Both the position numbers and the translations under genes were made by a program. From Limnobaculum xujianqingii (GTDB lineage: Bacteria > Pseudomonadota > Gammaproteobacteria > Enterobacterales > Enterobacteriaceae): DNA of 64,000 bases. Shown in pieces: positions 27,178 to 44,838 of the stretch (position 1 is its first letter; the number at the start of each line of letters is the position of its first letter). The stretch is taken from contig NZ_JABMLK010000002.1 in the NCBI RefSeq assembly GCF_013394855.1, forward strand, positions 1,364,001 through 1,428,000. The letters are read 5' to 3'. The notes below the pieces were generated by a model, which saw only the letters and a program-made list of their open reading frames with translations, searched no databases and was not told where the DNA came from.

Positions 27178-27789
27178 TTACTCATCAATCTGATAGCTGA
27201 AAACCGGCAAACCGATCTTGAACCAGATGGCTAACATTCTGAAGATAAAACCAAAAATCAGCGTAGCGATGACTGCAATATCCGCCATAATATTCAGATG
27301 AATCAGCCCGATATACAACATGGCTGAAGCAAAAGAGACACTGGCATACAGCTCTTTTTGAAAGACTAACGGGATACGGTTGCAGAAGATGTCCCGCAAT
27401 ACACCGCCAAACACCCCGGTAATTAATCCGGCAATGCCCGCTATCAGAACTGGCAGGTTCATGCTCATAGCAACCTGAGCACCAATGATAGAGAACACCA
27501 CCAAACCTACGGCATCTAACACCAGAAAGAATTTTCTCAGGTAGATCATAATGCGTGAGGTAGCGACGGTCATTACCGATGCGGCAGCAACAATCAACAC
27601 ATATTCCGGATGAGCCACCCAACCTAAGGGATAGTGACCTAAAATAATATCCCGCACGGTTCCACCACCAATAGCGGTGACGGCAGAGATAATGATAACG
27701 CCAAAAATATCCATTTTACTTCTACCCGCAGCGAGCGCTCCTGTCATTGATTCTGCGGTGATACCGATGATGTATAGATAGAAAAGCAT
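27178..27789 (-). CDS. yadS: TRIC-family cation channel (YadS-like)
   Basis: A 203-residue membrane protein with seven hydrophobic segments, of the UPF0126/TRIC channel family. The two internal repeats carry the family motifs [19 protein letters not shown] and [19 protein letters not shown]. The ATG at 27789 begins [22 protein letters not shown]; the frame is open for 55 codons upstream but that extension is polar, AT-rich and not family-like. Physiological role in bacteria is unclear. It marks the left edge of a large repeat island. Confidence 0.9.
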
Positions 27790-27975: not shown

Positions 27976-28088
27976 TTATTGAGTTTTGAGCAGGTTTCGT
28001 CCGCTAATGGTGTTGAGTCTGACTCAATTGTTGTGCGGCGGCCGAGCATAGGGCATTAAGGTGGATGCCCTATGCACCTCCGGCCTTC
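27976..28088. repeat. Structured repeat element, copy 1
   Basis: Begins with TTATTGAGTTTTGAGCAGG, then TTTCGTCCGC, a variable dyad (TTGAGTC/GACTCAA), the conserved GTGCGGCGGCCGAGCA (28033-28048), and an 11-bp hairpin GCATAGGGCAT / ATGCCCTATGC (28046-28075), ending CACCTCCGGCCTTC. A second copy lies exactly 135 bp to the right. The hairpin stem differs between copies but remains paired. Confidence 0.85.
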
Positions 28089-28110
28089 AATCAGGTTTAC
28101 GTACCTGTAT

Positions 28111-28224
28111 TTATTGAGTTTTGAGCAGGTTTCATCCGCAAATAGCGAAGTGTATGACTGAGCTATTGTGCGGCGGCCGAGCAGGAGGCGTTAAGGCGAA
28201 CGCCTCCTGCACCTCCGCGCCTTC
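28111..28224. repeat. Structured repeat element, copy 2
   Basis: The same order of blocks as copy 1: TTATTGAGTTTTGAGCAGG, TTTCATCCGC, a different inner dyad (AATAGC/GCTATT at 28141-28146 and 28162-28167), GTGCGGCGGCCGAGCA (28168-28183) and a hairpin GCAGGAGGCG / CGCCTCCTGC (28181-28210) whose loop keeps TTAAGG. Ends CACCTCCGCGCCTTC. Compensated stem changes relative to copy 1 point to selection or mechanism acting on the folded form. Confidence 0.85.
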
Positions 28225-28228
28225 GCAC

Positions 28229-28422
28229 ACGAATCCAGGTCGCTACGCGACTTCCTTCCTCTTTCGTTCGGCCTTAACGCACCGGCACTGATTCGCTCCC
28301 GGCGAAGCAGTGCCTCGACCAACATCCCTGTTGGTCGTGCTGGCCTCTCTCAGTCGTCAGCTGAATTCCAGTGCTCCCTAAGGTCAGGGGATGGGTTAGT
28401 ATTCAGGGGGGGCCCCCTGAAT
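28229..28422. other. String of further hairpins in the yadS-frdD island
   Basis: Dyads seen: GTCGC/GCGAC near 28240; CACTG plus TTCGC paired with GCGAA plus CAGTG (28286-28312); CGACCAAC / GTTGGTCG (28316-28323 and 28330-28337); and ATTCAGGGGG / CCCCCTGAAT (28401-28410 and 28413-28422). There is no open reading frame with coding character. The stretch 28423-28529 is plain AT-rich DNA. Confidence 0.75.
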
Positions 28423-28529
28423 ATGGGGATTTCGGTCTGGTTTGAATATCAGAGAATCATCATTAAGTTGATTAGAAAATCAGTTAATAAATGACTTTAT
28501 TAGTGAAATAGGTTTTTGTCCCATTTTCT

Positions 28530-28753
28530 GGCTGTTGGCTGTTGGCTGTTGGCTGTTGGCTGTTGGCTGTTGGCTGTTGGCTGTTGGCTGTTGGCTGTTG
28601 GCTGTTGGCTGTTGGCTGTTGGCTGTTGGCTGTTGGCTGTTGGCTGTTGGCTGTTGGCTGTTGGCTGTTGGCTGTTGGCTGTTGGCTGTTGGCTGTTGGC
28701 TGTTGGCTGTTGGCTGTTGGCTGTTGGCTGTTGGCTGTTGGCTGTTGGCTGTT
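28530..28753. repeat. Tandem heptanucleotide array, 32 perfect copies of GGCTGTT
   Basis: Counting in steps of seven from 28530 gives 32 uninterrupted copies of GGCTGTT with no mismatch. Seven is not a multiple of three, so all three plus-strand frames read the same peptide period (LLAVGCW) and stay open, which creates three spurious overlapping frames. No ribosome site precedes it and the flanks do not extend any frame into a recognisable protein. A perfect array of this length is expected to vary in copy number between isolates. Confidence 0.97.
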
Positions 28754-28814
28754 ACTTTTTAATTCTGATCTTGGTTTTTGCTTTTCAACAAAGCCAATCA
28801 GAGGGAGAGATTTC

Positions 28815-28948
28815 CGTTGGGGTCGACTTGGCGTAAGCCAACGAAGGGCCCCTAGGGAATCTAGGCCCGATGCACTCCAAAGCTAAGTATAAGGCCCTTC
28901 CGGCCGTACACATCAGGTTATATAAGCACTTAGCTATTACGGCCGGAA
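28815..28948. other. Candidate structured RNA or DNA element with interleaved inverted repeats
   Basis: Visible dyads: TTGGC-GTAA-GCCAA (28829-28842), CCTAG/CTAGG (28851-28855 and 28861-28865), AGCTAAGT (28881-28888) with ACTTAGCT (28928-28935), and TTCCGGCCGTA (28898-28908) with TACGGCCGGAA (28938-28948). The last two pairs interleave, the arrangement of an H-type pseudoknot. No coding frame fits. I do not recognise a known RNA family. Confidence 0.55.
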
Positions 28949-28995
28949 TATCCACAGTCGCTGATTTAAAAACTAAAACTCCCATCCCCATATAC

Positions 28996-29019
28996 AAAAA
29001 GCGCCCCAACGGGGCGCTT
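28996..29019 (-). terminator. Terminator of the frdABCD operon
   Basis: AAGCGCCCC / GGGGCGCTT with a three-base loop, followed on the minus strand by T5, about 47 bases after the frdD stop. Confidence 0.9.
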
Positions 29020-29065
29020 CCTTACGTCTTAATATCTGATGCAATCACATCATCGGGCATGCTGC

Positions 29066-29422
29066 TTACAGCATAAACACCCCAATCACCGCAATCACAC
29101 TCAGCGCACTCGCCAGACCGTAAAATACCAGCTTGCCCGCAGGCACATGCCACTTCAGGTCATGGGTCATATGGTGCATACGGTGTAAACCACACCATAT
29201 CGGCAGGATTATCATCAGCAGCAAAAATACACGGCCAATAAATCCCTGACAGAACGCCAGAATACGCGGGTAACTCAGCGCCTCCGGTGCCCAGCCCATC
29301 GGAAGAATAATCGCCACCAGTAAAATAATCACCGGCGCAATAATCGCTCCCCACATACCGCCCGCACCAAACAGGCCCCAGAATACCGGCTCGTCAGAGC
29401 GCTTCGGATTTTGTTCAATCAT
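29066..29422 (-). CDS. frdD: Fumarate reductase membrane anchor FrdD
   Basis: A 118-residue membrane anchor with three helices that, with FrdC, binds menaquinol and docks the FrdAB catalytic unit. It begins [24 protein letters not shown] and contains the [17 protein letters not shown] loop with quinone-site histidines. It is the last gene of the frd operon, 13 bp after frdC. Confidence 0.97.
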
Positions 29423-29435
29423 GTCAGTCGACTCC

Positions 29436-29825
29436 TTAAATCAGTGCCACGGCCAGAATTATCAGGCTCGCCACAATCGTTACGCCCCAGAAGAACATCA
29501 CAATCGGCTTCGCACTCAGCTTCTCTGTGCCTACCACAATGTTCGCCGCCTTCGGTGCAAGGTCAAACCAGGTCTTGGTATGAACCAGCGCCATTATCAG
29601 CGTGATGATATTTATTACCATCACCACCGGGTTGGCTAAAAAGCCCACAAAACCATACCAGCTCTCTGCACTGCCCAGCGCAAACACACCGTATATCAGC
29701 ACCAGACTGAACCACACGGCAGGCACCGCCGTACTCTCACGGAACATGTAAAACTTATAAAACCCGAGTCGCTTCCACCAGTCAGCTTTCACCTCGCGGA
29801 CATAGGGTTTACGTTTGGTCATCAT
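29436..29825 (-). CDS. frdC: Fumarate reductase membrane anchor FrdC
   Basis: A 129-residue three-helix anchor. It begins [20 protein letters not shown] with the conserved [19 protein letters not shown] segment that contains the quinone-site glutamate (E29 in E. coli). It lies 18 bp after frdB. Confidence 0.97.
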
Positions 29826-29843
29826 AATAGTATCCCTCTCCCT

Positions 29844-30578
29844 TTATTGAGGTTTCAGCATGGCAATCATAAAGTCTTTCGAACTCTCCACTTTACCCTG
29901 CTGAATAGCCGCAGCCGGGTCAACGTGTTTCGGACAGACTTCAGAACAGTAACCGACAAAGGTACAACTCCATACGCCATTCTTGCCGTTAAGCTGTGGC
30001 ATACGGGCCGCTTTACCCTTATCACGTGTATCCAGGTTGTAACGGTGTCCCAGCGTAATCACCGCCGGACCAATAAACTCCGGGTTCAGACCAAACTGAG
30101 GACAGGCGGCATAACACAGACCGCAGTTGATACAACCGGAAAACTGATGGTATTTCTCCATCTGTGCCGGCATCTGAATGGTCGGACCGTTCTCCGGCTT
30201 CAGACTGTCATTAATGATATAAGGCTTAATGGCTTCCAGACTCTCAATAAAGTGAGTCATGTCCACCACCAGGTCGCGCTCAATCGGGAAGTTACCCAGC
30301 GCTTCCACCTTAATACCGTCCGTGTAATCACGCAGGAAGGTTTTACAGGCCAGTTTAGGCACCTTGTTCACCATCATGCCGCATGAGCCACAAATCGCCA
30401 TCCGGCAGGACCAGCGGTAAGACAGGTCCGGAGCCAGGTTGTCCTTAATATAGCCCAGCGCATCCAGCAATGAAGTGGACGCATCATAAGGCACATCATA
30501 CGCCTCGAAGTGGGGTTCACTGTCGCGCTCCGGGTTATAGCGCATGACTTCAACTTTGAGGGTTTTCATCTCAGACAT
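29844..30578 (-). CDS. frdB: Fumarate reductase iron-sulfur subunit FrdB
   Basis: A 244-residue electron-transfer subunit. The N-terminal plant-type ferredoxin domain has the 2Fe-2S cysteines in [14 protein letters not shown], and the C-terminal domain has [12 protein letters not shown] and [17 protein letters not shown] for the 4Fe-4S and 3Fe-4S clusters. It passes electrons from membrane menaquinol to FrdA. It overlaps frdA by 8 bp. Confidence 0.98.
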
Positions 30579-32379
30579 TCGCCTGCTCCTTCTTTAATGC
30601 CTCTTCTTTAGCCTGGGCTTCCGCCTCGGCACCGTATACACGTTTGGCCGGCGGGAGGGTGGTAATTTTCACATCACTGTACTCAATGCGCGGCGTGGTG
30701 CTGTCCGGGCTGTAGAACGCCAGTGAATGTTTCAGGAAGTTCACATCATCACGCTCGGTACAGCCGTCATCCAGACGCTGATGCGCGCCACGGGATTCAC
30801 GACGTAACAGCGCAGAGTGAGCCATACAGTCAGCCACATCCAGACCATGACCCAGCTCAATGGTGTACAGCAGGTCAGTATTGAACACGCTGGTGCGGTC
30901 AGTAATGCTGACGCGCTTGAAGCGGTCTTTCAACTCAGCAATCTTGTCGACGGTCTTCTGCATCAGTTCTTCGGTACGGTAGATACCACAACCTTCTTCC
31001 ATGCTCAGGCCCATCTCATCACGGATTTTCGACCAGTTCTCGGTGCCTTCCTGCTTAAGCAGGGCATGCAGACGGCCTTCGATATCCGCCACCTGGGCAT
31101 CCAGCGCGCTGCCGTTAGCCGGCGCGGCAGATTTGGCACGCTCAATGGCATGCTCACCGGCCACGCGACCGAATACCACCAGCTCAGCCAGGGAGTTGGA
31201 GCCCAGACGGTTAGCACCATGCATACCGACAGAGGAACATTCGCCCACGGCAAACAGACCCGCCAGACGGGTTTCACACTGCTGGTTGGTTTCAATCCCA
31301 CCCATGGTGTAGTGCGCGGTAGGACGAACCGGAATAGGCTCTTTCACCGGGTCCACGCCAACATAGGCTTTGGACAGTTCACAGATGAACGGCAGACGCT
31401 CAAGCAGTTTCTTCTCACCCAGGTGACGCAGGTCCAGATAGACCACATCGCCGCGCGGAGAAGGAATGGTACGACCGGCGCGCCATTCGTGCCAGAAAGC
31501 CTGGGAGACTTTGTCACGCGGACCCAGCTCCATGTATTTGTTTTCAGGTTTGCCCAGCGGGGTCTCAGGACCCATGCCGTAATCCTGCAGATAACGGTAA
31601 CCGTCTTTGTTGACCAGAATACCGCCTTCACCACGACACCCTTCGGTCATCAGGATACCGGAGCCCGGCAGACCGGTCGGGTGATACTGAACAAATTCCA
31701 TATCACGTAACGGAACGCCATGACGGAATGCCATGCCCATACCGTCACCGGTGACGATACCGCCGTTGGTGTTGTAACGGTAAACGCGTCCTGCGCCGCC
31801 GGTGGCCATGACCACGGCATTGGCACGGATTTGAATCAGGGAGCCTTCCATCATGTTCATGGCGACTAAACCGCGGACATGACCTTCGTCAGACAGCAGG
31901 TCGAGAACGAAGTGTTCATCAAAGCGCTTGATGTTAGGATACTTGAGTGAGGTCTGGAAAAGGGTGTGAAGCATATGGAAGCCGGTTTTATCGGCGGCAA
32001 ACCAGGTACGCTCAACTTTCATGCCGCCGAAGCGACGGACGTTGACGGAGCCGTCTTCTTTACGGCTCCAGGGGCATCCCCACTGTTCCATCTGCACCAT
32101 TTCGCGGGGGCTGTTTTCGACGAAGTACTGAACGACGTCCTGTTCACAGAGCCAGTCACCGCCGGCGACGGTATCATGGAAGTGGGACTCGAAGCTGTCT
32201 TCGGGCTTGATAACGGCAGCGGACCCGCCTTCGGCGGCCACGGTGTGGCTGCGCATGGGGTAGACTTTAGAAATCAGCGCAATGGTACTGTTGGGATTCG
32301 CTTCGGCAGCGGCAATGGCTGCACGAAGACCGCCACCACCTGCTCCGATGATAGCAATGTCTGCGTTAAAGGTTTGCAC
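30571..32379 (-). CDS. frdA: Fumarate reductase flavoprotein subunit FrdA
   Basis: The 602-residue catalytic subunit that reduces fumarate to succinate in anaerobic respiration. The N-terminal dinucleotide fold is [20 protein letters not shown], the covalent-FAD histidine lies in [10 protein letters not shown], and active-site pieces [10 protein letters not shown] and the arginine in [13 protein letters not shown] are present. Sampled 60-base stretches of this gene count at about 52 to 68 percent G+C, above the neighbouring genes, and long open frames occur on the opposite strand for that reason. In E. coli epmA is divergent from frdA; here a transporter operon follows instead. Confidence 0.98.
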
Positions 32380-32487
32380 TGCATTCCTCCAAATGTTCCA
32401 GTTTAGTGGATGGGTTAAAGTTTTCTTATTGTGTGTGTAGCAACAGATTAATTATATGAACCGGCATATTATAGCCGAGCTGGCGAG

Positions 32488-43701: not shown

Positions 43702-44838
43702 ATGTGTACTACTTGCGGATGTGCTGCGGGCGAGCGGCGAATTGAAGGAGAGGAACACGCGCATTCTCACCATCATGGACAAGATCATCATCACAGCCAT
43801 GAGCATAGTCATGCTCACGATCACGGCCACCATCATCATGACCATGAGCACCACCACCACGATCATGGCCATAGCCATTACGGGCACGACCATGTTCATC
43901 ATGGGCATAATCACGAGCATAGTCACGACCATGGTCACCACCATCATGGTCATCATGAAACTCCGCGTACCATTGTTATCCATCATCATTACCACCATCA
44001 AGGGGATGTGCATCACCATGTGCATACCGCCATCGCTCAAAAGATGGGTGATGTAGAGTTTGAGCTGGAGATGGAACAAAAAGAGCTCGCAGAGAAGAAC
44101 GAAGAAAAATTTCAGCCGCGTGAAATCGAACAGGATCTGGATTATGGTCACGGCGAAGCGGGCACTCACGCACCGGGCATGAGCCAGAAAAGAATGCTGC
44201 AAATTGAGATGGATGTGCTGAGTAAGAACAACCATCTGGCGGAACATAACCGCGAATATTTCGCTGAAAAACACATTCTGGCGTTGAATCTGGTATCAAG
44301 TCCGGGTTCCGGCAAAACCACATTATTAACTGAAACCCTGATGCGTTTACGGGAGCGTTTATCCTGTGCGGTGATTGAAGGGGATCAGCAAACCACCAAT
44401 GATGCCGAGCGTATTCGTGCTACTGGCGTACCGGCAATTCAGGTGAATACCGGTAAAGGCTGCCATCTGGATGCACAAATGGTGCACGATGCAGCCACTC
44501 GCCTTGAATTGAAAGAGAAGAGCCTGCTGTTTATTGAAAACGTGGGTAATCTGGTTTGTCCTGCCAGTTTCGACTTGGGGGAGCGGGCAAAGGTTGCTGT
44601 TTTGTCTGTGACTGAAGGGGAAGATAAACCATTAAAATATCCTCATATGTTTGCAGCATCAGAACTGATGATTTTAAACAAAATCGATTTACTGCCATAT
44701 CTGCATTTTGATGTTGCCGCCTGTATTGCCAATGCTCGCCGAATTAACCCGAATATTCAGGTTATTCAATTATCAGCAACCAGTGGCGAGGGTATGGAAG
44801 CCTGGGTCTCATGGCTGGAGACACAGTTATGTGCTTAG
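43702..44838 (+). CDS. hypB: HypB nickel-insertion GTPase with a very long histidine-rich domain
   Basis: A 378-residue GTPase (E. coli 290) that delivers nickel with HypA. The N-terminal metal site CTTCGC follows the initiator methionine at 43702; the frame is open five codons upstream but GGGGGAG fixes this start. Residues about 19-108 are almost half histidine (nearly 50 H) with D, G and S, a nickel-storage domain as in HypB 'nickelins'. Then [21 protein letters not shown]-loop SSPGSGKTT (199-207), [13 protein letters not shown] and NKIDLLPY. It suggests the cell stores or buffers nickel for hydrogenase maturation. Confidence 0.97.

Follow-up and report, generated by a model that had tools for sequence, protein, structure and literature searches.

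The window, the whole 64,000-nucleotide stretch of Limnobaculum xujianqingii DNA that was analysed, carries a long heptanucleotide array in a non-coding stretch that has a PF03458 gene on one side and frdD on the other. Reading from left to right, the following features surround it.

27178–27789, minus strand: PF03458 'Gly_transporter' membrane protein, the left neighbour (exact name unconfirmed)
27982–28110, minus strand: second copy of the L module, truncated (73.4 bits, model R1)
28117–28386, minus strand: L module, a dispersed structured element of ~270 bp (304 bits, model R1), RNA-like in sense with its 5′ end toward the array
28273–28342, minus strand: match to Rfam RF01731 TwoAYGGAY (44.5 bits against a gathering score of 43), an AGGGAU-loop hairpin inside the L module
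28400–28423, no strand assigned: palindrome TATTCAGGGGGGGCCCCCTGAATA, read by eye, with similar ones after the L module in other L-array-R copies
28530–28753, plus strand: GGCTGTT array of 32 perfect units (equivalently GTTGGCT; AACAGCC on the minus strand), from sequence reading, TRF and shuffles
28745–32405, no strand assigned: frdABCD segment with a second genomic copy (G000:C1, locus L081), that copy being without the array
28781–28990, plus strand: R module, a second dispersed repeat and the right boundary of the array spacer, with no similarity found to L or to the module of genome G022
29000–29018, minus strand: putative frd operon terminator, a G+C-rich stem followed by a T run, read by eye and not listed by the terminator scan
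29066–29422, minus strand: frdD (PF02313 and NCBIfam FrdD above cut-off), followed by frdC, frdB and frdA up to 32379, also on the minus strand

An earlier note had placed the array between yadS and frdD. The frdD assignment stands on both PF02313 and NCBIfam, but the yadS label finds no confirmation: its only NCBIfam match, PRK10578, reaches 115 where the cut-off is 326. The same note's perfect 32-copy array was borne out: direct reading gives GGCTGTT ×32 without interruption at 28530–28753, and TRF reports 28529–28753 with period 7, 32.1 copies and 100% matches. The two-unit word has 31 overlapping matches in the window against none in 100 shuffles (chance expectation 0), and such head-to-tail copies of a short unit, well above chance, are what defines a VNTR or heptanucleotide SSR. 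Folding of the array itself is not supported as its cause, because DNA folds of neither strand beat shuffles. Elsewhere in the window, at 43828–43944, there are short degenerate repeats (CACCACCACCACGACCATGAG and CATAGTCACGAC), possibly a His/Asp-rich protein segment.

All three plus-strand frames of the array are open, as had been noted, and so are the three minus-strand frames. A protein-coding repeat with the period Leu-Ala-Val-Gly-Cys-Trp-Leu could be read from these six open frames; however, the stop-free 21-base cycle of the 7-bp unit leaves every frame open anyway, no Pfam match was obtained for the array reading, and stops interrupt all six frames of each of the three sister arrays that were tested. 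The open frames are therefore meaningless and coding is excluded as a conserved function, so that this reading was rejected and is given practically no chance. A sequence-specific protein- or RNA-binding array, another early suggestion, is not supported either, because the unit changes between sites and species.

GGCTGTT is not a lineage mark, and this candidate was rejected, since many phyla have such arrays, with at least 119 stretches of four units or more (52 of the 119 listed lie in an open frame). One of these arrays has 108 units (L196:284–1039, Aquimarina agarilytica ZC1 Scaffold10). Within the own genome (G000), the three-unit pattern occurs at 30 places, every one of them inside the window array, and a pattern search found the three-unit word in none of 59 relatives, three congeners included. 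Four units were found in 6 of 398 genomes of a phylum sample, the own genome included, against 0 of 398 for the reversed heptamer, a single control word. In the five other genomes, nhmmer found no L or G022 module in the fetched stretches; one weak match to model R1 (E 0.021) came from L376.

The site itself was compared across the genus, with one genome per species and with site A denoting the PF03458 side of frd and site B the other frd copy. Site A holds GTTGGCT ×32 in G000, GTTAGCC ×8 in G003, and GTTAGCT ×7 together with TTTTGA ×8.8 in G001; copy number at this orthologous site thus differs (×32, ×8 and ×7) among three congeneric species, as in a VNTR. Site B of G000 reads TTAGCCGTTAGC, about two degenerate units, while site B of G002 carries GTTAGCC ×20 (L280:6762–6901) and, at a distance of 377 bp, another copy of two units that precedes an R module (L280:7278–7291). 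Site A of G002 is rearranged, with no L module and a two-unit GTTAGCC before the R module (L288:7228–7241), and is therefore not a clean orthologous state. The units of the frd sites are one or two substitutions apart between arrays and homogeneous within each array, which would be explained by a separate expansion of a two-unit seed in each lineage. The proposal of a length-variable locus recently expanded by slippage gains support from the orthologous site in two congeners and from the paralogous frd locus in two genomes.

The two frdABCD copies of the own genome are 98.6% identical over 3.67 kb and 100% identical over the 2.1 kb tested. Near-identical flanks surround a diverged island that holds the array, an arrangement suggestive of gene conversion. 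In G002 there are likewise two frd loci, which are 99% alike.

These comparisons bear on two further explanations. The genome is in three contigs, and the array length could be an assembly artefact, the true array being shorter or longer. This is very improbable: arrays also occupy this position in two further assemblies, a third genome has one at the paralogous site, and the 224-bp array lies inside a 1.69-Mb contig. A functional VNTR, whose spacing would tune expression of frd or of an element transcript in a phase-variation-like manner, is somewhat less far-fetched, yet still decidedly improbable. The strong difference in same-site length between species speaks for it, and so does the position, with frdD on one side and the 5′ end of an RNA-like module on the other. 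Against it, the array lies downstream of the frd operon, past a terminator-like hairpin; the number of promoter-like sites nearby does not exceed chance (2 found against 3.3 expected); no array is present at the second frd locus of the own genome, a paralogue; and the unit sequence is not conserved. An array on the 3′ side of frd, with no promoter-like excess and with non-coding sister arrays, does not have the features of a phase-variation SSR, which would lie in a promoter or a reading frame and switch its expression.

The L module next to the array is highly repeated. A 711-base query from the left flank had at least 42 matches in G000, 48 in G001, 36 in G002 and 45 in G003, counts that include pieces and truncated copies among the 40 candidates scored per genome. 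In an alignment of 70 L copies, 27 of 61 pairs show double-sided compensation, and the first hairpin (P1) encloses a conserved loop, with compensation counts of 27, 8, 40, 16 and 20. Of the 77 L modules with ORFs on both sides in the own-genus sample, 41 stand between convergent genes, compared with 124 of 605 ordinary gaps; 12 modules inside an ORF and modules lacking two flanking ORFs were left out of this count. RF01731 covers only part of the module, the match spanning model positions 43–119 of 168 rather than the full length; it scores over its cut-off in 9 of 40 genomes, the own included, and gives no match of any score in 14 control genomes. The R module was considered as a degenerate second L module and this was rejected, no similarity between R and L being found. 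Units of ~115–120 bp built on a CCGGCC...GGCCGG palindrome are repeated in tandem after the R module at L034:1994–2324 and L044:1904–2466, and truncated L modules occur in tandem at L287:1239–1968 and in L263, spaced about 146–150 bp. Two Y1 transposase (PF01797) matches, one of them with an internal TGA, are located at G000:C1:2842015–2842377 and 2706901–2707260.

Perfect arrays (unit 5–9 bp, at least 4 copies) were then counted in 1.69 Mb of own-genus DNA, window included, composed of element-bearing stretches of the four genomes G000–G003, which were chosen for carrying the element, together with background from the own genome in the form of 20 spread-out stretches of 20 kb. A profile search of this sample recovered 125 L modules and 108 R modules, and 22 of its 23 perfect arrays are no more than 62 bp from an L or R module; the 400-kb background has no arrays, no L modules and 13 R modules. 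Modules with 100 bp around them make up 24% of the non-ORF DNA sampled, giving a binomial p = 4e-13, which overstates independence because the 22 arrays group at about 13 places. Each of the 22 stands on the RNA-5′ side of the module, in one case at a distance of 575 bp. The lone element-distant array is CACTTCCTG ×6.2 (L238:2985–3040).

Orthologous copies of the element differ in whether, and with which unit, they carry an array. One element tail has AAAAGACC ×9.75 in G000 (L221), CAACTGC ×9 in G002 (L270), no array in G003 (L245) and none over threshold in G001 (L257). Similarly, L210 has an array and L243 and L287 have none, L254 has one and L237 none, and L264 has one and L234 none, with no array found in L222 and L273 likewise. 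At a single site, GGTTTT is present in 9 units in G000, 13 in G003, 15 in G001 and about two in G002, and the orthologous arrays L214 and L259 differ by one base of the unit (AAAGACA in G000, AAAGACC in G001). In the sampled DNA of the genus, then, such word-runs occur almost only beside the element, and they grow or vanish independently at each site.

The same neighbourhood was found in another genus of the same family. Genome G022 (56.5% GC in the fetched stretches), reached through its RF01731 matches, has modules of ~265 bp arranged head-to-head at all 20 loci, as seen in a 5.5-kb stretch around each match. At 16 of the 20 loci the spacer between the modules contains perfect arrays, 38 in total, and a 21st locus has arrays too, all counts coming from the 5.5-kb stretches of element loci alone. 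Every one of the 38 arrays lies between head-to-head modules, on the RNA-5′ side. The units GAGCTTT, AAAACCC and CAAAGG recur across G022 copies, and the end motif TTGACCTT is common to the Limnobaculum element and that of G022.

A covariance model built from the 70 copies matched all 20 loci of G022, 6/6 of G005, 1/1 of G011, 8/8 of G019, 2/2 of G018, 6/6 of G072, 6/6 of G086, and one each of G074 and G096; it gave no match in the 400-kb background, in G040 (2 loci) or in G046 (1 locus). Module length across the genera is ~240–280 nt, and head-to-head pairs besides those of G022 occur at 3 of 6 loci of G005 and at the one locus of G011. In whole-genome searches the RNA model matched at least 12 of 60 relatives, with at least 31–33 matches per congener and at least 21 in G022, and none of 24 genomes of other families; these counts are floors, since up to 32 candidates were scored per genome under strict filters, and G005 and G019 were missed. 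The module covaries strongly in the copies from other genera: over 78 of them, 92.3% of pair cells pair (68.0% in shuffles), double changes occur in 59 of 61 pairs, and the covariation score reaches 0.570 (0.164 in shuffles, 0.04–0.09 in slid structures), values that lean upward because the alignment was fitted to the structure. Genera other than Limnobaculum and G022 have hardly any arrays. In one set, 1 of 20 loci has one, GGGTTGT ×6.6 at L342 of G019, 13 bp beyond the 3′ end of the module; the 14 loci of G086, G072, G074 and G096 have no adjacent array, and L363 of G086 has a 9-mer array about 250 bp from its module. The module alone is thus not sufficient for arrays, because the 31 loci of G005, G011, G019, G018, G072, G086, G074 and G096 are nearly array-free.

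Perfect arrays of medium-sized units in bacteria are usually viewed as random slippage loci. What is seen directly here is the position and perfection of the array, its differences between species, the short states at the paralogous sites, and the way arrays gather next to the element in the sampled DNA. We consider it quite probable that the array is a heptanucleotide VNTR, grown by slipped-strand mispairing from a seed that held roughly two GTT[A/G]GC[C/T] units, in a spacer on the RNA-5′ side of the module that serves as a nursery of 6–8-bp arrays in Limnobaculum and G022. In that spacer, arrays of 6–8 bp would repeatedly be born, lengthened, replaced and lost; the strong hairpins adjoining it may pause replication and so help slippage, and the arrays may be tolerated because the spacer is probably under no selection.

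Plain slippage leaves the restriction of the 22 Limnobaculum and 38 G022 arrays to the RNA-5′ side unexplained, unless seeds sit only there. Alternatively, the array could have been built by the mobility of the element, through template switching or copying at its 5′ boundary as a module or pair spreads, with slippage only trimming it later. Such an origin would suit the position of all 60 arrays checked in the two genera, the consistent pairing of G022 modules with arrays between them, the units shared by different G022 copies, and the end motif common to both genera. Nevertheless, orthologous sites gain or lose arrays without a new insertion, the G019 array of L342 is on the 3′ side, no target duplication or mobilising enzyme was identified, and no link to the element was seen for the two PF01797 matches of the own genome, which makes construction by mobility unlikely. 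Growth by slippage within the nursery stays the preferred reading, and the array is an ordinary microsatellite, the element being the interesting part.

As to what the element does, its hairpin loops give a lead. The GGA of the P1 loop is found on the minus strand in 64 of 71 Limnobaculum copies, on the plus strand in one and on neither in six, the 71 being those copies, out of 95 full-ended ones, whose hairpin the search pattern located. In the other genera, GGA is present in the P1 loop of 78/78 copies and in the P2 loop of 75/78, frequencies that are partly selected because many of the loci came from the AYGGAY-loop model RF01731. The comparison also drew on the longer CsrA consensus. As in CsrA-binding RNAs, GGA is placed in hairpin loops, with two hairpins per module, and a csrA gene is present (1 match). 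TwoAYGGAY was proposed as CsrA-binding, according to the available portion of PMC4333381. By its loop sequence, its two hairpins per module, the strand-specific conservation of the loop and this published proposal, the module is a candidate CsrA target.

A relative of the element occurs in E. coli, where the G011 module matches 5375 of 5426 complete genomes at a median of 4 places. No annotated feature underlies this ~290-bp structured repeat in the 10 matches listed. A copy between copA and ybaP (L385:2489–2765) reaches 72 bits with the covariance model and contains ACAUGGAUGU and ACAGGGAUGU, two GGA motifs that lie in a hairpin context; the copA region of E. coli MG1655 gave no model match. 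E. coli intergenic repeats were reportedly treated by Rudd in 1999. A literature search of open-licence papers did not find the element as one described family, so the present case combines a family not found described with an ordinary VNTR in an unusual nursery. Tentatively, the array could mark a dispersed family of ~270 nt, present in several genera of Enterobacteriaceae and in nearly all E. coli, whose two-GGA-hairpin modules spread singly or as head-to-head pairs and are predicted to act on read-through from neighbouring genes as a CsrA-binding sponge or 3′-UTR control, their 5′ sides being array nurseries in some genera. This composite reading is a possibility rather than an expectation. 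If the module does bind CsrA, these scattered repeats would belong to a global regulatory network.

In the sampled DNA of two genera, arrays gather at a single defined position next to a single element family, so that where and why they arise becomes directly testable. The element itself combines strong covariation and GGA-loop hairpins with a relative in E. coli that is unannotated under the ten matches listed.

Intergenic heptanucleotide arrays are already known, and so are GGCTGTT arrays in many phyla; according to the part of PMC4692102 consulted, those of Xanthomonas (GGGAATC) and Nostoc (GGGGATT) have 2–26 units. The present array is like these in being a perfect intergenic run of 7-bp units, length varying between related strains there, but the accessible text describes one G-rich motif genome-wide, whereas here the unit varies by site and a structured neighbour recurs. 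With BIME and REPIN, as presented in the available sections of PMC3116915, the element shares dispersal, an extragenic position and compensatory hairpin changes. Inverted pairs around a spacer are seen at 20/20 loci in G022, 3/6 in G005 and 1/1 in G011, whereas the Limnobaculum partner R is unrelated to L. It differs from them, within the same sections, in that the modules are ~270 bp (~240–280 nt across genera) instead of short REPs, that the spacer can hold 6–8-bp arrays, that in the first hairpin the stem is less conserved than the loop, and that no linked RAYT was identified, PF01797 matches included. The window copy passes the gathering score of RF01731 TwoAYGGAY with an AYGGAY/ANGGA hairpin loop, although RF01731 captures only a portion of the longer fold that the module forms. 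By description, the module can be likened to the tRNA-linked repeats RrA, RrB and RrF of E. coli, which the available text of PMC8144298 presents as multi-copy, intergenic and transcribed into RNA with GGA-loop hairpins, RrB binding CsrA in vitro; unlike the module, they sit in tRNA and rRNA operons according to that text. Finally, the CsrA/RsmA-sequestering RNAs CsrB, CsrC and RsmYZ also have GGA-loop hairpins, generally paired, but the module, a putative CsrA ligand with no known transcript, is a dispersed repeat that often lies between convergent genes.
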